Shown here piece after piece: positions 18,216-27,618 of a DNA stretch of 58,092 nt (position 1 is the first letter of the stretch; every line of letters begins with the position of its first letter). A program made the position numbers and the translations under genes. Origin of the DNA: a virus; IMG/VR virus record IMGVR_UViG_3300047585_000006, positions 1 to 58,092 of that record. One strand, 5' to 3'. Below the pieces are notes generated by a model. That model saw nothing but the letters and a program-made list of their open reading frames with translations, had not been told where the DNA came from and made no database searches.

Positions 18216-18803
18216 CTATGTTTCAAGGGGCACGTAACTTATCGTCAGCAGAAGCCCGTTGATTGCAGCGGGGCCAGAGTTGATGACCGTGACATAGACG
18301 TTCTTACTTTGAATAGAATCCGAGTTCGATCCCACGATGTTCTGAGGTTGCCAAACAAACGGGGACGTGTCAAGGACTACGTCAATGATGAGGCCCTGAG
18401 TGGTTTCCGCTGGGGCCGGGGCATCCACACCCCGCCCAGAATCAGCCGTTTGGCCCGCAATGGAACCATACAGCCGAACACAGCATCCTTGGTTTGCCGT
18501 GATTGAGAGAATCTGAAAGGATTGGGACAGTACGACCGTTGTTTGTGCCGAACTGTTGCCCGCGATAGAAACGAATGTGGCAGACGCCGTCTTTGCCACG
18601 AGGTTGATAGAAGAACCAGATGATCCACCGCTGGATGACCCGCTGCTTGCACCACCAAATTCCTTTACCGTTGTGGTTCCCCCGGTTTGGGGGGTCAACG
18701 GCAACACGCGAAACTTGGGAGATTCACTCCCTTCAAATTGTCTGAGGCTGTCAACGTCGGCTCCGACCGGCGGCAAAGGACAGCGAATGTTAGGATTGCT
18801 CAT
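18216..18803 (-). CDS. Virion-associated beta-rich protein, 195 aa
   Basis: The ATG at 18803 is chosen because it begins the phage-like sequence MSNPNIRCPLPPVGADV, and the longer frame would run into the upstream HNH gene. A Gly/Ser linker (GGASSGSSSGGSSGSS, about 50-66) joins a short N-terminal arm to a beta-rich domain of about 125 residues. It is likely a tail decoration. Confidence 0.6.
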   Translation of the reverse strand: MSNPNIRCPLPPVGADVDSLRQFEGSESPKFRVLPLTPQTGGTTTVKEFGGASSGSSSGGSSGSSINLVAKTASATFVSIAGNSSAQTTVVLSQSFQILSITANQGCCVRLYGSIAGQTADSGRGVDAPAPAETTQGLIIDVVLDTSPFVWQPQNIVGSNSDSIQSKNVYVTVINSGPAAINGLLLTISYVPLET

Positions 18804-19203
18804 GAAGAGTTTTCCAGTCTCGAAGATACTTCGCAGCCGCTTCAAGAATGAGAGGATCGTCCATGAAACGACCCAGACCCGTGTTGCAATTCACACACAG
18901 TAAACCTCGGACTTTTTGCGTCTCGTGATTATGGTCAGTATGTGGTGCATCCAGTAAGCGTGAGCAAATCGCACAGCGGTTATTCTGTGCGGCCTTCTTC
19001 GCTTCATGTTCCTCGGGCGTTAACCCGTACGTTTTCTTGATGTAGTTGTCGTGATAAAAAGTCGGATTCAACCTATTGAACTCTTGAGTGCGTATGATGC
19101 AGCACGCCTTACACTCGTTGCGAGAATTCAGGTTATCCGACGTTTGAGCATGACCCCGCTTACAGACCTTTGGGATTTGTAAGCGGGGTTTTCTTTTCGA
19201 CAT
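18790..19203 (-). CDS. Free-standing homing endonuclease, endonuclease VII-like
   Basis: The 137-residue protein has N-terminal metal sites (CKRGH...CKACC), then YGLTPEEHE, the pair CAIC, the catalytic HTDHNHETQKVRGLLC and the family tail CNTGLGRFMDDP...AAKYL. It starts just after the tail tubular-like gene ends (19207) and its stop overlaps the next gene's start by 14 bases. Confidence 0.92.
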   Translation of the reverse strand: MSKRKPRLQIPKVCKRGHAQTSDNLNSRNECKACCIIRTQEFNRLNPTFYHDNYIKKTYGLTPEEHEAKKAAQNNRCAICSRLLDAPHTDHNHETQKVRGLLCVNCNTGLGRFMDDPLILEAAAKYLRDWKTLHEQS

Positions 19204-19206
19204 GGA

Positions 19207-22200
19207 CTAGTCCTCTGGGGTGAAACTACCGTAGATCGTAAAACTTAACAACTCATTTATGGCACTCTCTGGTGCCCACTGGATCATCACTTGGAGATGA
19301 CGAACGCTTTCGCATTCCTCGTGATCTTCGGATACGTAGAATCGCTGTCCATAGATCGACTTGGACGGCTTCAAGTTCGGAGGATCAGACTCCCATCGCT
19401 TGAGGATTCGCATACTGCCCGTGAAGTAAGGCAGAGCTTCGTCTAGCAGAACCCCGAGGATGAGTGGTGTTCCCGTTGCAACTGAGTCAGTCGTCACGAA
19501 CTGGATGTTCGCAACTTGACCGGGTTGAGCACACACGTAAGACCCGAACACCGCGTAAGCGGGGTAAGTCGTCCCGTTGATGAGTGTCGTTCCACCATCA
19601 GTCGTCGCGTTCAGGTTCCGAGCTAGGATACTTCCAACGCCTGAAGTACCGCCACTTGGAGCCGGACCCGTCAACAGAAGGTGATTACCCGGACTAACTT
19701 CAATTGCCTTAATCGCACCGCAACCTTGACCCGTACCCGGAAGGATAGTAGCGAACGGTGACCACGCCAATCCCTGTTCGGGAGCGGGCGTTGCCACGAG
19801 TCGATACCAACCGTTGAGTCCGTCAGATGCGAACCACCCCATATCCTCGCCGTTGGCGTACCAAGCGACGTAGACGCTAGATGGGTTCCAATCCTGACCG
19901 GGATTTCCGTTGTCCAACCGGAACTGGTCTGCGATTGGATGACCGACATGGTCAGCACCATTCGCGGGATTGAAGATCAAGAACTGATGATCGGTTGTGA
20001 ATAACCCCATCAGAGTTCCGTTGACATCCAGAGCGTTATAGCTCGGCAAGCCCACACCGGGAAGGTATGGACGACCGTCTAATATCGTCCCATTATTATC
20101 TGGGATGATATAGACATCCGACAACGTGAATACGAGCAGACCTTGAGACACAGGCACTAGCCGAGTGACACGCGAAATCATTGTGTCGATGTTACCCGGA
20201 GCCGTCCCATTGATCCCGTTGCCCGAAGGGGCGTTTGGACCGGACGTATAGTAGACCGTGTTCCCAATGCTGTACCAAAGTCGGTTCAAGTGGTACGTCA
20301 GATTGACTGCACCCGGAAGGGGTGGAGTGTTCTCCTGTGCGACTGCACCCTGAAGGAGTTCATCAAGCTGGGTGTCGGGCGTGTCATCGACATACCCGTA
20401 CTGCAAATACTGGACGAGAGGAACAGTCCAGATCGTGTTGCCGTCATTGGGGACCAGCAATTCGATAGAGCCGCCATCCGTCGTACGATAAATCGCCACA
20501 TAGTCAGCTTGTGGGTCAATCGTAGCCGGGTCGAGTCCTTCACCCGGCGGGAAGATAACAACGCCGCCGATAACCTGCACACCAACGCCGTTAATCTCGT
20601 TGGTTGGACCCATGTTCGACACCGTGTTGTCAATTGTGTTGACCAACGCGATGCCGTATACGAATCCCTGAGTGCTGGTCGCCGTAATTTTACCCGGCGT
20701 GTTGCTCTGGGTTGGAGCCGTTCCAGTGTTGATCCACCAGAGTGTTGCTCCATCCTGTGCCAAACTGCCGACGGTCGAAGCCGCCGTAAAGTTGGACGCT
20801 GGAATTGTTGAGCTTGAAACGCCCGTGCCATATGGCAGAAACGTCGCTCCGTTGACAACTACGCCCGTACCGGGAAGAGTGTACGGAGTATTCGGAGCGA
20901 ATGAGGCCACATTGAACGTTGACACTGGACCGAGGTTCATCCAAGTGTAAAGGTTTGAGGCTTCTGCTACCCGAGCACCAAATACAATTTCTCCGGCAAA
21001 CGGAGTTGAAGCTGTCGCTGGACCCGCTGCGTAGGATTGGCCCGTCGTTTGAATCGACGATCCTGTCGGCCACGCTGGAGCCGAAGTCCAAGAGATGTCT
21101 TGTCCCACTGCGAGGTTCTGGCCAAGAGGGACAACAGTCCACGAGCCATTCGCGGTCAAGATCATCGCCGCTTGGTTCTCCCAATTGACGTAATCAATCT
21201 CAATCGTGTAGTTGCCCGCTGAAGGAAACGTGAACGTCCCGTTCTCCGTCAGCACACCGCTCTGGGGTGGATGTCCTTCACCACCACCGTCAACGCTGTG
21301 GTTATTGCCCACAAGGTTAGCCAGAGGGATGTTGAGGACGCAAGATGCACCCGTACCCGCGTTGTTACTTGGGTTGGGTCCGCTTCCCGTTGCGTTAAAG
21401 AATCCGAAAAATGCTCCATCATCATGACTGATTGAAAACGTGTAAGTACCGGGAGCCGGGATGTACACCGACGCCAAAAACACCATGCCGTTGTCGCCCG
21501 CGTAACCCGAGTTACCGGGACTTGGTTGCAGAGTTCCGTTTCCACTTACCGCGTAGAAGAAGATGTCCCCACCAGAACCGTCAAAGCCGCCCGGCAGAAC
21601 TGCCACAGGCTGAGTCATCGTGCTACCCGTCTGCTGCCAAAGTGACTGGGCATTAGGCGAGATAGGATTGCTCGTCGGCGGCGGCGAAGGGAACGAGATA
21701 GGGAAGTACCCTTGGAAAAAGTTAAAACCTTTTCCGGGGATTCCGGTGTTCGCGTTATCGAAGCCATACGCCGTCACGGGTTGGGCCGGAGCCGCAAAGC
21801 CCGAGGGCAGGTTAGGACAAGTCGATCCACCCGGAATTGGGTAGAGACTATGAATGAAAGGTTGCACCCCTTTGTAAAGCTGGAAGATGTTCGCAGACTG
21901 GAGTATGTAATCGTCCTCATAGAAATGCGTGTTCGGTGCCCACGTCGTCGAGGCCGCAGTCTGGACCGCAGTCCAAATCTCCGTACCTGACGAGTAAGTC
22001 GTTGCTGGCGCACCCGCGATTTTGTTCAGCGTGATGTAACCTGCGTCACCTACGACGGACGATGCCGCCACAGTCAACGAAGGGTTAGTCGCCGTGATAG
22101 TCGCCGGAGCACCCGGTACGGGACTCGAACTCACGGAAACAACCGTAAAGATCAAACCATTAAGTACCAAGTCTTGGGCTACACGAAGACGATGAACGAC

Positions 22201-23667
22201 AAACGTGTCGCCCGTCGTCAAACCTGCGGGATACGTTTCCGTTCCAAATACAACTTTACCGAGTCCACCAACTACGCCGTCAAGCGTAACCGTGTACACG
22301 TCAAGCTTCTTCTCGAACGTAGTGATCGAAGGCGGCGTGAATGCCGCACCTGTTCGACCAGCGGTCGTGATCTGCCAAACGTTGCCCGATGCGTCGAGAA
22401 TGATAGACGCCGGGGAGTAGTACGTGTTTGGTGACCAATTCCCGGCGGTTGCACCAAAAGTCGAAACAGCCAGGGCCTCATCCGGGGCTGCGAGGCCCCA
22501 ATTCTGAACAGTCGTACCCCGGTTGGCCCAAAGTGCTTGGCCGTCTACCGTGATGCTGCCTTGAAAATTCGTCGCCGCTGAGGGTGCCGTAGTACCCCAA
22601 GTCGGCACACTACTCCCGAGGAGTATAGTGTTCGCCGGGTTCGGAACTCCGTTGATGAGAGATGGTGCCCCATCAACCTGAATGAACGCCGTGTTATTTC
22701 CGGCAGTGATCGTTTCCGACACGTTGCCATGAACGAACGCAGCCTTGATCGTCGTGCTATCCCAGACTTCGGTCAACGTGATCGTCGCACCCTGCAAGAA
22801 TGCGAGGCTGTGCGTCGGACCAAATTGGCCCGCCGTATCCGTGCTCCAAATGACAAACTGAGCACCAACTTGGGGGTATCCAGTGCTGCCGATGTTCGAG
22901 AACGGAGAACCACTGACCGTCAGAGTCAACGTATCGTTTGCGATGACAACGTTCGTGATGTAAATGTTGTTAACACTCGTAGTCGGGGCCGAACCGCTCT
23001 GTGCGATTGCACCGATCAACTGCTCCATGTTGCTATTCCCGTCGATGAGAAAGGTGCTCATGAATGGATACGAGTTCAACGGAAGAGGTTGACTATTACT
23101 TGCAGCCGTACGTTTGAAGAGGGATTGAGTCCATTTCTTGTTATCAACACCATCACCGAAGTACCACTGATTGGCGACTTGCTTACCGTAGCTCTGGCCT
23201 GCACTCGGGGAATTGCTCTCCCAGACAGCCGGAGTCGAACCGGGATCGCCCGGTTGTTTTTGAAACGCAGCATTGATCGCAGACAAGGACGCGTTAGCAT
23301 CTCCAGCCGGACCTTCGCTCACCATCACGTCGATTTGTTCGGTCACTGTGCCAAAGATGTCGCTGAGGGCCTTGCTGATTCGGAACTCGTCGAAAGACAG
23401 AACATTGTCCCACGTATTCACCGTGTCGTAAACCGGGTTACCGGGACGGCGAGATAGCGTGAGACGGTTGGTAACTTCGACGTTCGATCCTGCAATCATG
23501 GCATCGCCATCAGGACCGTAAAACTTTTCTTGGGTTCGGGTAGTCCGAGCATCCCGCAGCGGAGAACGATTGGTGTACAGGCCGTTGAAGTATCGCCCTG
23601 TATACAAAGGAGCCGACTTAGTGGGCTTGGGGGGTTGTGCTCCAGCAGCCTGCATAGCATTAGGCAT
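19207..23667 (-). CDS. Large tail protein: T7 gp12-like start with PA14-like domain
   Basis: The 1486-residue protein opens with the tail tubular protein B-like block TGRYFNGLYTNRSPLRDA (about 23-40) and carries PVSQGLLVFTLSDVYII near residue 1170, as in head-tail or tail tube proteins of short-tailed phages. Between them lie inserted beta modules. These include a PA14-like domain at about 690-845 (YTFSISHDDGAFFGF and TIEIDYVNWENQAAM), a probable carbohydrate-binding unit, and a module WSPNTYY...DASGNVWQITTAGRTGA (about 411-440) seen in other virion proteins here. Its first 17 codons are duplicated at the start of the upstream HNH gene. Confidence 0.78.
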   Translation of the reverse strand: MPNAMQAAGAQPPKPTKSAPLYTGRYFNGLYTNRSPLRDARTTRTQEKFYGPDGDAMIAGSNVEVTNRLTLSRRPGNPVYDTVNTWDNVLSFDEFRISKALSDIFGTVTEQIDVMVSEGPAGDANASLSAINAAFQKQPGDPGSTPAVWESNSPSAGQSYGKQVANQWYFGDGVDNKKWTQSLFKRTAASNSQPLPLNSYPFMSTFLIDGNSNMEQLIGAIAQSGSAPTTSVNNIYITNVVIANDTLTLTVSGSPFSNIGSTGYPQVGAQFVIWSTDTAGQFGPTHSLAFLQGATITLTEVWDSTTIKAAFVHGNVSETITAGNNTAFIQVDGAPSLINGVPNPANTILLGSSVPTWGTTAPSAATNFQGSITVDGQALWANRGTTVQNWGLAAPDEALAVSTFGATAGNWSPNTYYSPASIILDASGNVWQITTAGRTGAAFTPPSITTFEKKLDVYTVTLDGVVGGLGKVVFGTETYPAGLTTGDTFVVHRLRVAQDLVLNGLIFTVVSVSSSPVPGAPATITATNPSLTVAASSVVGDAGYITLNKIAGAPATTYSSGTEIWTAVQTAASTTWAPNTHFYEDDYILQSANIFQLYKGVQPFIHSLYPIPGGSTCPNLPSGFAAPAQPVTAYGFDNANTGIPGKGFNFFQGYFPISFPSPPPTSNPISPNAQSLWQQTGSTMTQPVAVLPGGFDGSGGDIFFYAVSGNGTLQPSPGNSGYAGDNGMVFLASVYIPAPGTYTFSISHDDGAFFGFFNATGSGPNPSNNAGTGASCVLNIPLANLVGNNHSVDGGGEGHPPQSGVLTENGTFTFPSAGNYTIEIDYVNWENQAAMILTANGSWTVVPLGQNLAVGQDISWTSAPAWPTGSSIQTTGQSYAAGPATASTPFAGEIVFGARVAEASNLYTWMNLGPVSTFNVASFAPNTPYTLPGTGVVVNGATFLPYGTGVSSSTIPASNFTAASTVGSLAQDGATLWWINTGTAPTQSNTPGKITATSTQGFVYGIALVNTIDNTVSNMGPTNEINGVGVQVIGGVVIFPPGEGLDPATIDPQADYVAIYRTTDGGSIELLVPNDGNTIWTVPLVQYLQYGYVDDTPDTQLDELLQGAVAQENTPPLPGAVNLTYHLNRLWYSIGNTVYYTSGPNAPSGNGINGTAPGNIDTMISRVTRLVPVSQGLLVFTLSDVYIIPDNNGTILDGRPYLPGVGLPSYNALDVNGTLMGLFTTDHQFLIFNPANGADHVGHPIADQFRLDNGNPGQDWNPSSVYVAWYANGEDMGWFASDGLNGWYRLVATPAPEQGLAWSPFATILPGTGQGCGAIKAIEVSPGNHLLLTGPAPSGGTSGVGSILARNLNATTDGGTTLINGTTYPAYAVFGSYVCAQPGQVANIQFVTTDSVATGTPLILGVLLDEALPYFTGSMRILKRWESDPPNLKPSKSIYGQRFYVSEDHEECESVRHLQVMIQWAPESAINELLSFTIYGSFTPED

Positions 23668-23670
23668 AAT

Positions 23671-24174
23671 CTAGCTCCTAGCAATCTTGCGGACGTGGTC
23701 CAAAAAATTCTCAACCGATAGATCGCACTTCATGTGATTACACAAAAAGCAACAAGGTACGCAATTTTCTAAAGCGTAACCGACGGCGTTGTCACGCCTA
23801 TCCACCCCGCCATAGGGCTTTGATAATGATTGGCAGTAATAGCACTGCCGAGTCACCAGACCTAACAAGTCTTCACGGGTCAACGGGAATTTCAACTTCC
23901 GAACACGAGCATTTCGCTTGTAGGTGTAGTAAAGTTCACATAGCCCCTCTGGATACCCTGAAGTGCAACGACGACATCCTCTTGTACGAGTGCCCCGAAC
24001 CAATTCCCATGAACTAATTAATTTTTCGACTCCGCAAGCACAAACACACTCGTAGGAACCTTTCCCCGCATAAGATTGAACGGTCCATTTACCAAAAGTC
24101 GTTCCCACATCAAAAGGATTAAACTTAGTTGGCTTAGGAGGTTGTGCCCCGTTAGCCTGAAGGGTGTTCGGCAT
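23671..24174 (-). CDS. HNH homing endonuclease carrying a copied tail-gene start
   Basis: The 167-residue protein has a C-terminal HNH core (VDRRDNAVGYALENCVPCC, then CNHMK) and a zinc-binding middle (CVCAC...CRRC). Its first 17 residues (MPNTLQANGAQPPKPTK) are nearly identical to the first 17 of the tail protein that begins four bases after its stop (MPNAMQAAGAQPPKPTK). The endonuclease therefore uses the tail gene's original translation start, while a duplicate start serves the tail gene. The DNA copies differ at several synonymous sites, so the duplication is not recent. Confidence 0.9.
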   Translation of the reverse strand: MPNTLQANGAQPPKPTKFNPFDVGTTFGKWTVQSYAGKGSYECVCACGVEKLISSWELVRGTRTRGCRRCTSGYPEGLCELYYTYKRNARVRKLKFPLTREDLLGLVTRQCYYCQSLSKPYGGVDRRDNAVGYALENCVPCCFLCNHMKCDLSVENFLDHVRKIARS

Positions 24175-24188
24175 GGATCGGACCTTTC

Positions 24189-25250
24189 TTAGACTTGGAA
24201 CATTACCGCGAGAACGGGGACTTCAGTTCCGTACGAAAAGGGTGTGATAGCCCCAAGCGTAGCGGGAAGAGTCGTGCCCGTCGCTGCGTTAGCTGCGGTT
24301 CCAAATCGAACCGGAGCAACGGGTGAAGAGTTCGGGAAACTCCAGTTATTGAGCAAGTCAGACAATGAGGAGTTCAACTCATGTACTAGCATTCCGCCGC
24401 CTGCTGAAGTGCTCGTCCACGCGAACCAGTAAACTCCCGGCTCAAGCGTGATAGGACTCTCAAAGGTGACTTGAGAAACTGCTTGACTATGCGTTGACAT
24501 ATCAAATGCGGACGCCCCGCAGTCGATAAGTTTAGTGTTTCCATCTGCGGAATAGATACCTGCGGTCGCAAACTCTCCGCTGCCTCCTCCTGTGATGCAG
24601 AACGCGGCTGCGGAAGAAATGACCCACTTAGATTCGAGGATCAACTGGACGCAAGCAACCGCACTGTTCAGATTGATCGCGCCCGCAGCGGAAAGACCAA
24701 TAGGGTTATAATCTTGACCGCCGAAGAACCATCCTTGACCGGGAGTATTAAACTCTGTGCCGCCGCCGGATGCCTGAAGATTTATATTACCGCCACCCTC
24801 GTCCGTGATCGTAATGCTGTCGTCCGTGGATTCGAGATTGAGTGTGTTCTGGCTACTGTTGAGTGTGCCGTTATTCTTGAGTGTGATCGCACTCGTTGAA
24901 GGCGTCCACGAGATGATCTGGTTTGGAATCCAACCACCCAAATTAAACGGAGATGATCCCATGACTTGCTGATTGTTTGGCCCCCACGCAGGTTGGCCTT
25001 CAGCCGTGAACCCGGTGACCTTGTAGAACGAGTTCGGTGGAAGAATAACATCATTTCCCCAGATGAACTGGCCTGCTACTGCGTTGCCGTTGGAATCAAG
25101 CTGGATCACAATCTCGATGCCGGAGCAGATGTTGCCCACGCCGGAGACTGAGCCGTCCACGCTCAACAGAAAATGTAGATAACCGTTGGCAAGTACATTG
25201 CCCTCAGCATCCTGAAACGCTCCCCCGGTGAGTTCAACTTTAGATGGCAT
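24189..25250 (-). CDS. Tail appendage protein, 353 aa
   Basis: Residues 1-100 form a domain (VLANGYLHFLLSVD, LDSNGNAVAG, FYKVTGFTAEGQPAWGP) shared with the product of 25310-25609. A strand-rich connector (NNGTLNSSQNTLNLEST) and a C-terminal globular beta domain of about 180 residues follow, perhaps a receptor-binding or decoration head. No enzymatic motif. Confidence 0.65.
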   Translation of the reverse strand: MPSKVELTGGAFQDAEGNVLANGYLHFLLSVDGSVSGVGNICSGIEIVIQLDSNGNAVAGQFIWGNDVILPPNSFYKVTGFTAEGQPAWGPNNQQVMGSSPFNLGGWIPNQIISWTPSTSAITLKNNGTLNSSQNTLNLESTDDSITITDEGGGNINLQASGGGTEFNTPGQGWFFGGQDYNPIGLSAAGAINLNSAVACVQLILESKWVISSAAAFCITGGGSGEFATAGIYSADGNTKLIDCGASAFDMSTHSQAVSQVTFESPITLEPGVYWFAWTSTSAGGGMLVHELNSSLSDLLNNWSFPNSSPVAPVRFGTAANAATGTTLPATLGAITPFSYGTEVPVLAVMFQV

Positions 25251-25309
25251 GATGTTCCTTTACTCCCACAATGGCATCGCTACGCCATCTGGGGTCGTGT
25301 GACTTACCA

Positions 25310-25609
25310 CTACCCCCCGCCGACGGTCAACTGGCCATCCCACGCGGGTTGGCCTTCAGCCGTGAATGCTTGTACAAAATACACGGTGCCTGTGGGGCTC
25401 AGCGTGCTATTCGGCCAAAGATTAACGATGACGATGCCGTTGTCGTCGAGAGTCGCTACAACTGTACGTTGTGCCGTGACTTGTGGCCCGCCTGAAGTTG
25501 CCGTCGAGATGTCTGCACTCAGCGTGATGCGTACCGAGCCGCCCGCCAGCGGGTTGCCGGCGGGATCGAAGAATGTTAGAACGACAGGAATCTGGATGGG
25601 AGTAGTCAT
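25310..25609 (-). CDS. Small tail appendage protein, paralogue of 24189-25250 N-terminus
   Basis: The 99-residue protein is a single domain ending in VYFVQAFTAEGQPAWDG, matching the 353-aa neighbour's first domain. Characteristic parts are AGGSVRITLSAD, LDDNGIVIVNLWPN and the FTAEGQPAW strand. Its stop is 60 bases upstream of the next start. The pair probably arose by tandem duplication. Confidence 0.65.
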   Translation of the reverse strand: MTTPIQIPVVLTFFDPAGNPLAGGSVRITLSADISTATSGGPQVTAQRTVVATLDDNGIVIVNLWPNSTLSPTGTVYFVQAFTAEGQPAWDGQLTVGGG

Positions 25610-26563
25610 TTACGCTCCTCGGGCTTGAACGCCTTGCTGCATCTTGAGCATGTAACCCTCTTGCAGAGCTTCCCAATTGTTCAAGAAAATGTTCTTCTGT
25701 TCCTCAGTCAATCCTTCTGCACGGCCAAGCAACGCAGCTTTGAACTGGCCGTTGGCGTATCCCGCACGCGGATCGTCCGCGAATTGCCACATGAGTGCGA
25801 GGAATCCCCAATCGTAGACATACTGCATGAAGTCAGGCAGCGGTGCCCACGTTTGATTCATACTCGTGATGCCGGGTGCCGCAAGCTGAACATGGACTGA
25901 GACGGGGTAAGGTTTGTCGGGTGCCGCACTCATTCGGAAGGTAACATTTCCGTTACCATCTTCAACGTGCGGTGAGATGAACTCTGGGCGGGCCTTGAAA
26001 GATTCGAGTGCGAGGTTGTTCTTGACCGTCAATTCCCACCACTTCAACGGAGTTCCCGTCGCCGTGAGGTCGAGGACACTTGCGTGTTCGACGTGCGAGA
26101 AAGTCGGTGCTGGGATCGTATAGTCCTGAGTCGTGACGTTCGTGAACGTCCCGGCAGTCGTATCGGGGCCTGCGTCTGCGAACTGGACATTAGCCGTGAA
26201 GCCCGAGCCAGTCGCGGTCTGGATAATCGTGACTTTACCGTTCAACCCGGCGAGTGCTCCGGTGAACCCGCCGATGATGACGATGTTCTGCGAGGCGAAA
26301 GTGTTCGTCGCGGATACGGTCAGTACACCAGATGCGACAGAAGCAGTCGTGCTCGTCGCGGCATTCGGAGTCGGATTACAAGTGAACACCAACTCCAGAT
26401 TGTTCCACCACCATTCAAACGGAGGACTCAAAATTACCTGTTGGACTAAATTCGCCGCAGTTCTCGCGGGTTCGAGGGAATTTCCAATGACGGGATTACG
26501 ATTGAACGATAGTCTCTTCGACCAGTTAATAGTGTCTTGGATCGTCCGTGTTGAGATCGGCAT
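25610..26563 (-). CDS. Tail or neck structural protein, 317 aa
   Basis: The protein has two parts split by a beta-rich insert (about 70-150, VTIIQTATGSGFTANVQFAD). The flanks contain Trp-rich segments (FEWWWNNLELVF, KWWELTVKNNLA) and a conserved-looking C-terminus (ADDPRAGYANGQFKAALLGRAEGLTEEQ) typical of phage adaptor proteins. Context suggests the neck or tail hub. Not confidently assignable. Confidence 0.6.
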   Translation of the reverse strand: MPISTRTIQDTINWSKRLSFNRNPVIGNSLEPARTAANLVQQVILSPPFEWWWNNLELVFTCNPTPNAATSTTASVASGVLTVSATNTFASQNIVIIGGFTGALAGLNGKVTIIQTATGSGFTANVQFADAGPDTTAGTFTNVTTQDYTIPAPTFSHVEHASVLDLTATGTPLKWWELTVKNNLALESFKARPEFISPHVEDGNGNVTFRMSAAPDKPYPVSVHVQLAAPGITSMNQTWAPLPDFMQYVYDWGFLALMWQFADDPRAGYANGQFKAALLGRAEGLTEEQKNIFLNNWEALQEGYMLKMQQGVQARGA

Positions 26564-27015: not shown

Positions 27016-27618
27016 TTACGTGGTCTCTTTCGAGTCCCCTGTTCCACGAGCGTATTTGGCGAGATAACTGGTGACTTTATCCCAGAGCGGTTCAATCCGT
27101 CCTAATGCCGTGTTACAAGCACCACACAATACGCCTCTGTGCGTGCCCTCTCGACCATGTTCATGATCAGTATGCCAGACCTTCGTGAATCCTTTACCCC
27201 AAGTCAAACTAGTGATGCCGCAAAGAGCACATGCCCCGCCTTGAGACGCGAGTTGTGCGTCCCTGTCATAATCACGGCCATAGCGGATTCCGTTCTGGGA
27301 TTTAATTCGTCCTCGATACATCACATCGGGGTATTTCTTACGGAAACGTTTGTGCTCATCATGGCTACATTGGATGCACTTTCGCCCGTCCTTCTTACCC
27401 TTCCTGAATCTCTGAAAGGTATTCTCCAGCGTGAGTTCGTGTCCGTGAACGCAATGTATTTTCTTAGGCCAGCGAAGTTCCGGAGGAAGCGAATGCAAGT
27501 TAGCCTTTTGCCATTTAGTACTATTAGTACGACGGCATTCTTTACAATGAATATACTTCCGAAACATGTAACTATTTTCGGGGGTCATCAAATGCCCATT
27601 TTTACAGTGTTCTCTCAT
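27016..27618 (-). CDS. Free-standing homing endonuclease, endonuclease VII-like
   Basis: The 200-residue protein has tandem zinc-ribbon-like repeats (CKNGHLMTPENSY...CKEC and CVHGHELTLENTF...CIQC), then CALCGITS, the catalytic WHTDHEHGREGTHRGVLC and CNTALGRI. It has its own promoter (27625-27653) and ends six bases before the next in-frame ATG. Confidence 0.9.
   Translation of the reverse strand: MREHCKNGHLMTPENSYMFRKYIHCKECRRTNSTKWQKANLHSLPPELRWPKKIHCVHGHELTLENTFQRFRKGKKDGRKCIQCSHDEHKRFRKKYPDVMYRGRIKSQNGIRYGRDYDRDAQLASQGGACALCGITSLTWGKGFTKVWHTDHEHGREGTHRGVLCGACNTALGRIEPLWDKVTSYLAKYARGTGDSKETT

Follow-up and report, generated by a model that had tools for sequence, protein, structure and literature searches.

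In the 58,092-nucleotide viral sequence analysed here (IMG/VR record IMGVR_UViG_3300047585_000006, positions 1 to 58,092; hereafter the window), a structural gene has probably been invaded within its opening codons by a free-standing, PacI-like HNH mobile gene, which brought along a diverged version of the structural gene's start. A native gene terminus fused to the nuclease, with a replacement on the working gene, is seen directly in a relative of the window (L137), in the Acinetobacter phage Liucustia and at locus L197, and is proposed for the window from its ribosome-site context and by analogy with these cases. The features of the region, listed in the direction of transcription, are as follows.

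24189..25250, minus strand: upstream gene of 353 aa, a homologue of which directly precedes the structural gene in empty-site relatives
24183..24187, minus strand: AAAGG, the likely ribosome site of the native start, now serving the HNH gene; context as in the empty relatives L119 and L121
24174..23671, minus strand: HNH ORF, 167 aa
24124..24174, minus strand: probable native start of the structural gene (17 codons), now the N-terminus of the HNH protein; likeness runs to about codon 20 (24115)
23671..24123, minus strand: HNH (PacI-like) body and stop, from PHROG 1035/3322/3118, the PacI match and the structural model
23675..23679, minus strand: AGGAG, a putative ribosome site newly serving the structural gene, within the HNH 3' end
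23667..19207, minus strand: structural gene, 1486 aa, tail or head decoration protein and target of the insertion, identified through Tunturi_3 gp19 and IMG/VR relatives
23617..23667, minus strand: probable replacement start of the structural gene, codon-diverged by sequence comparison

Both ORFs were confirmed as an earlier note on this DNA had given them; on the minus strand, the stop of the 353-aa gene is followed by 14 nt, the HNH ORF, a further 3 nt and the 1486-aa gene. That note had described the first 17 residues of the two proteins as near-identical, and they are: 14 of 17 residues are equal between the HNH protein (MPNTLQANGAQPPKPTK) and the structural protein (MPNAMQAAGAQPPKPTK), as are 38 of 51 nucleotides, and alignment of 24174-24124 with 23667-23617 confirms that the two starts are homologous. 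The synonymous differences that it reported are likewise present, at 6 of 13 changeable same-residue codons, a moderate divergence that falls below the maximum. When the structural-gene start was compared with all 3,524 start codons of the two strands, its self-score was 91, the HNH start reached 78 and no other exceeded 23; a tblastn search of its own genome with the whole structural protein returned, besides the self-match, the HNH start alone (E 2e-4). Since the next-best likeness is 23 against 78, both chance and a general leader are excluded as the source of the resemblance. The earlier note had named such a leader, shared among many genes, as the outcome that would speak against its reading, and an N-terminus in common, together with the frequent location of HNH genes within introns, might have suggested either a general leader peptide or a spliced intron or intein. 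We find this hardly credible, however, since the shared N-terminus is carried by only two window genes, since each ORF has its own start and stop, and since Rfam returned no intron match in the window region, L137, L030, L197, L094 or L081. The general leader was rejected because no other window start or tblastn match is comparable, and a group I intron or intein homing gene because Rfam recognised no intron RNA structure.

The likeness between the two starts probably extends to codon 20. Residues F18 and P20 of the HNH protein are those that relatives most often have natively at these two positions, which would place the junction between codons 17 and 20. The nuclease proper appears to start past the captured peptide, because alignments with HNH homologues begin mostly at residue 22-24 and because an AlphaFold2 model (mean pLDDT 84.6) is of low confidence over the first 20 residues and becomes confident from about residue 21. 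The protein matches PHROG 1035, 3322 and 3118, and its best match by both profile and fold is PacI (3ldy), with which it has the zinc-bound HNH fold in common. On the strength of these PacI matches we assign it, by prediction, to the HNH (beta-beta-alpha-Me) endonucleases with zinc cysteines; residues C111, C114, D125, R126, N137, C142, C145, N146 and K149 are invariant. Pfam recognised no family in the window protein even at E 1, and the homologues also remained below threshold. PacI is a restriction enzyme, whereas the window protein has an additional, cysteine-rich N-terminal part before the matched core.

To whom the duplicated start belongs is indicated by the relatives of the structural gene. 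Single-protein scans of viral contigs and genome contigs, with the HNH and structural proteins as queries, gave no matches and an alignment query was needed; alignment-based scans then yielded 26 and subsequently 76 loci. In the Tunturiibacter phage Tunturi_3, gp19, which is annotated as a head decoration protein and is 43% identical to the structural protein, starts with MPNLLGLAGAQPQKQVRFAPIYNGRW directly after its upstream gene. Because the starts of gp19 and of about 70 IMG/VR relatives agree on the consensus M?N?LQ??GAQ??KQTRFAPIYTGR, the duplicated start is, by sequence, native to the structural gene. Many relatives carry an empty site, with no HNH gene before the structural gene. Together, the native starts and empty sites support the earlier proposal that the HNH gene inserted after codon 17 and that a duplicated start restored the structural gene; we refine this to a junction at codon 17-20, with the HNH-side copy probably native and the replacement on the working gene.

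The refinement draws on the context of the two starts. The HNH start is preceded by TAAGAAAGGTCC, and a comparable context stands before the structural-gene ATG in empty-site relatives (L121, TAGAAAGGTCC; L119, TAAGAAAGGTTC), while the working structural gene draws its putative ribosome site, AGGAG, from the HNH 3' end. Because the ribosome-site context matches that of empty relatives, the nuclease probably uses the native start and the structural gene the new one. The codon affinities of the two window copies are mixed, each leaning to different relatives with no clear winner. None of the empty-site relatives is near-identical to the window, the closest being about 70-78% identical in the first 100-200 residues, and the polarity in the window therefore rests on the ribosome-site context and on the sister cases. 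Separately, the nearest relatives differ along the region, the upstream genes (24189-26563) grouping with L128/L130/L176 and residues 1-117 of the structural protein with L177/L118/L117. This suggests a mosaic boundary near the HNH gene, to which, given general phage mosaicism, we attach little weight.

Polarity is directly evident in L137, where a homologous HNH gene occupies the same slot and is fused to that locus's own structural-gene start (MSQIAANGGQPQ followed by VGDVFGKW). The working gene, with its ATG located within the 3' end of the HNH gene, starts with MSQIAANGGQPQ followed by KSPRYAPIY, such that the two copies are equal at 12 of 12 residues and differ at 9 of 11 changeable codons. 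Compared with five empty relatives (L128, L130, L131, L169 and L176), the HNH-side copy agrees in 35 of 55 codon cells and the working copy in 4 of 55, against 15.9 for random synonymous codons (P 5e-5 and 0.006). From codon 13 on, the same gene has 203 of 412 same-residue codons (about half) in common with these relatives; recoding is confined to the duplicated stretch. The significance of the recoding comes from this comparison with empty relatives, because the codon sharing between the two copies alone (2 of 11) is not below a random synonymous draw (P 0.21).

Mirror images of this arrangement occur at gene 3' ends. In the Acinetobacter phages Liucustia and phi1_092033, a tail-fibre gene has an HNH gene at its 3' end; the Liucustia endonuclease is QQV88753. 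Liucustia was compared with the empty-site phage CP14 and further empty-site isolates; the preceding 300 of 300 nt are identical to CP14, yet in the gene end, F I W T R T A stop, all 7 of 7 changeable codons are altered, the stop included, and the protein is unchanged (TTC ATT TGG ACT AGA ACA GCA TAG in CP14; TTT ATC TGG ACG AGG ACT GCC TGA in Liucustia). It is the HNH gene that closes, in frame, with the native spelling and the downstream spacer. In L197/L362, 4098 bp of flank are 99.9% identical to the empty locus L363, after which 868 bp, comprising a foreign gene end and the HNH gene, replace 39 bp of L363 before native sequence resumes. The C-terminus of the L197 HNH protein is the native gene end, nucleotide for nucleotide, fused in frame, and the replacement terminus (..NYTPQTGERLVVETSINNPIVLTVG) differs in protein too, as that of a homologous donor would; no donor genome for this terminus was found. 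Junctions are sharp in both L197 and Liucustia. The earlier note had attributed the divergence of the window copies either to selection on both peptides or to a diverged donor. The divergence expected of a donor is directly visible in L197, and in Liucustia donor origin and selection for recoding are inseparable because only synonymous changes are present.

These comparisons bear on whether the start was duplicated in place, that is, whether the HNH gene inserted, the start was duplicated in tandem within the genome and the copies then drifted under selection on both peptides. Both window copies have the motif PPKPTK, which is rare in relatives, and about half of their codons agree, as such a history would predict. 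We nonetheless consider it unlikely: the flanks of Liucustia and L197 are 99.5-100% identical to empty relatives beside a fully diverged terminus, such that the difference did not accumulate in place, and the working copy in L137 is further from its relatives than random codons would be.

The frequency of such duplications was surveyed by comparing the regions before and after the nuclease at 142 distinct HNH loci, with 741 control ORFs and 77 GIY-YIG loci. Duplicated gene termini were found at 6 of 142 HNH loci and about 4 of 741 controls (Fisher P 0.002), a P value that is indicative only, since the control count was judged by eye after the fact, with low-complexity matches and one unrecognised nuclease removed; the other 136 HNH loci have no such duplication. 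The six convincing cases are the window, L137, L094 (start of a cytosine methyltransferase), L081 (start of an RNA ligase) and, at gene ends, L090 and L197; Liucustia, being too short for the test, is left out of this count. Polarity was assigned in L137, Liucustia and L197; L094, L081 and L090 have no close empty relatives. Only one GIY-YIG locus qualifies (1/77), namely L299, at the start of a methyltransferase-like gene. Two loci that also score, L257 and L304, prove to be tandem zinc ribbons or tandem nuclease genes, and the matches at L068, L220, L361 and in most high-scoring controls are of low complexity or out of frame. In its own right, the GIY-YIG gene of L299 (2788-3810) is accompanied by a truncated first copy of the gene start (IDKDTGIWSID / IDKETGIWSIE). 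At L212, a nuclease gene (651-1253) is flanked by the peptide near-copies EMATRRKRKHRERLSEKTPKR and EMATRRKPKRCRERLSEKTPKR and is possibly a further case, and in L090 (2482-4919) the motif FADELEKI occurs in two proteins of the phage contig.

Occupancy of the slot before the structural gene varies among relatives: it is empty in L117-L133 and others and occupied in the window, L116, L137, L149 and others, which is the sporadic presence expected of a free-standing homing endonuclease. In L116, a 44-residue remnant of the same HNH protein lies directly before the structural-gene ATG (L004 5865-5999, same contig), a decayed insertion. Because further relatives hold HNH or endonuclease VII-like genes (L134, L149, L159 and L164) or GIY-YIG genes (L146, L170 and L189, with no captured start seen), the slot is a nuclease hot spot. 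By eye, cupin-like or glycosyltransferase-like genes occupy the same slot in other relatives (L015, L017, L022, L026 / L016, L023, L025, L027), and it thus accepts non-nuclease cargo too. A passive scar, left when ordinary phage recombination brought a dead nuclease gene to the vicinity of a gene boundary with neither homing nor rescue, is suggested by the commonness of phage mosaicism and by the switch in the window's nearest relatives at this point. It appears quite improbable, given that the HNH reading frame and conserved residues are intact, that different genes repeat the pattern, polarity included, and that the slot is a nuclease hot spot. A benefit of the captured peptide to the HNH protein itself, through stability, expression or virion packaging, with selection for that benefit, strikes us as very unlikely. 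In both the window and L137 the peptide remains in frame, and it supplies a strong start context, but it is modelled as unstructured and with low confidence, the C-terminal peptides in the 3'-end cases are unrelated, no fusion exists in L081 or L094, and L149 lacks the peptide in the same slot.

Entry of the HNH gene together with a diverged terminus thus being our preferred reading, we propose that the nuclease would cut genomes lacking the element at their native terminus. Repair would then copy the HNH gene and the diverged terminus out of the donor, using as its two homology arms the gene body and the native terminus fused to the HNH. The replacement terminus would keep the gene alive and, because its DNA differs, would probably not be cut. 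It may also be too diverged to recombine with the native copy, such that the nuclease would not be deleted and excision would be suppressed. The arm model predicts that the fused piece is of each phage's own gene type, which is what we observe. We see an even chance that these loci represent a natural phage class of 'recoded-rescue' homing drives, in which endonuclease genes invade conserved coding termini, a synonymously recoded terminus restores the gene, is immune to the nuclease and blocks excision, and the native terminus is taken up in the reading frame of the nuclease and acts as a homology arm.

The usual locations of phage homing endonucleases are introns and inteins, gaps between genes, and gene splits that are tolerated. 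The closest natural parallel is in fungal mitochondria, where mobile ORFs bring a foreign C-terminus to atp6 in Allomyces macrogynus and to atp6, atp9, cox2 and nad3 in Glomus, the inserted termini having 64-81% DNA identity to the relative's and being closer in protein (PMC3630166); N-terminal duplications through intron mobility in Tremella are cited in PMC8393795. As in the fungal ORFs, the copies have high protein and low DNA identity, and a diverged terminus serves the gene beside the endonuclease with the native terminus beyond, an order seen directly in L197, Liucustia and L137. The fungal enzymes, however, are LAGLIDADG or GIY-YIG proteins, mitochondrial and mostly at 3' ends, whereas the phage cases involve HNH proteins in DNA phages, at 5' and 3' ends, with the native terminus in frame with the nuclease, and the recoding in Liucustia is purely synonymous. 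The free-standing homing endonucleases of T-even phages also lie next to or inside essential genes, as with mobE, which splits nrdA in Aeh1, and involve co-conversion of flanks, but in the part of that account available the gene is split or left whole and no replacement terminus is described (PMC2988022). Similarly, the available part of a survey of nucleases at phage exchange boundaries contains no replacement terminus (PMC10448857). The ShiLan-type HNH hidden in a phage methylase likewise sits within a phage gene with no intron or intein around it, but the host gene reads through it, with no duplicated terminus in the available part of the description (PMC11855218). HomeR home-and-rescue drives, in which a re-coded 3' end of 22-27 codons restores an essential target and prevents conversion (PMC7968924), resemble the phage cases in logic, not kinship, by setting a nuclease against an essential gene with a re-coded end, and differ in being synthetic, Cas9-based and built in insects. 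In the open-access literature, which was the scope of our search, we found no phage description of terminus-carrying endonucleases, and this recurrent phage arrangement is apparently undescribed.

If our reading is true, a nuclease gene that brings its own spare gene end could target any conserved coding terminus, combining a conserved cutting site with no cost to the phage. Chimeric nucleases with the N- or C-terminus of a neighbouring gene would be explained, as would abrupt synonymous divergence where genes end in otherwise identical phages. Recoding for immunity, which is relevant to the Liucustia/CP14 pair, is the principle of engineered home-and-rescue drives.

Other features of the window deserve mention. 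Directly behind the structural gene lies a clear endonuclease VII gene (18790-19203, minus strand; PF02945, 6e-20), and an endonuclease VII/HNH-like gene lies upstream (27016-27618, minus strand); by eye, no captured terminus was seen at either. A direct repeat of 28 nt, 96% identical, links positions 24983-25010 and 25339-25366, between the 353-aa gene and a 99-aa ORF upstream of it. The two genes are likely paralogues, because relatives carry the same related gene pair (GGxFQDxxGNxLxxG).
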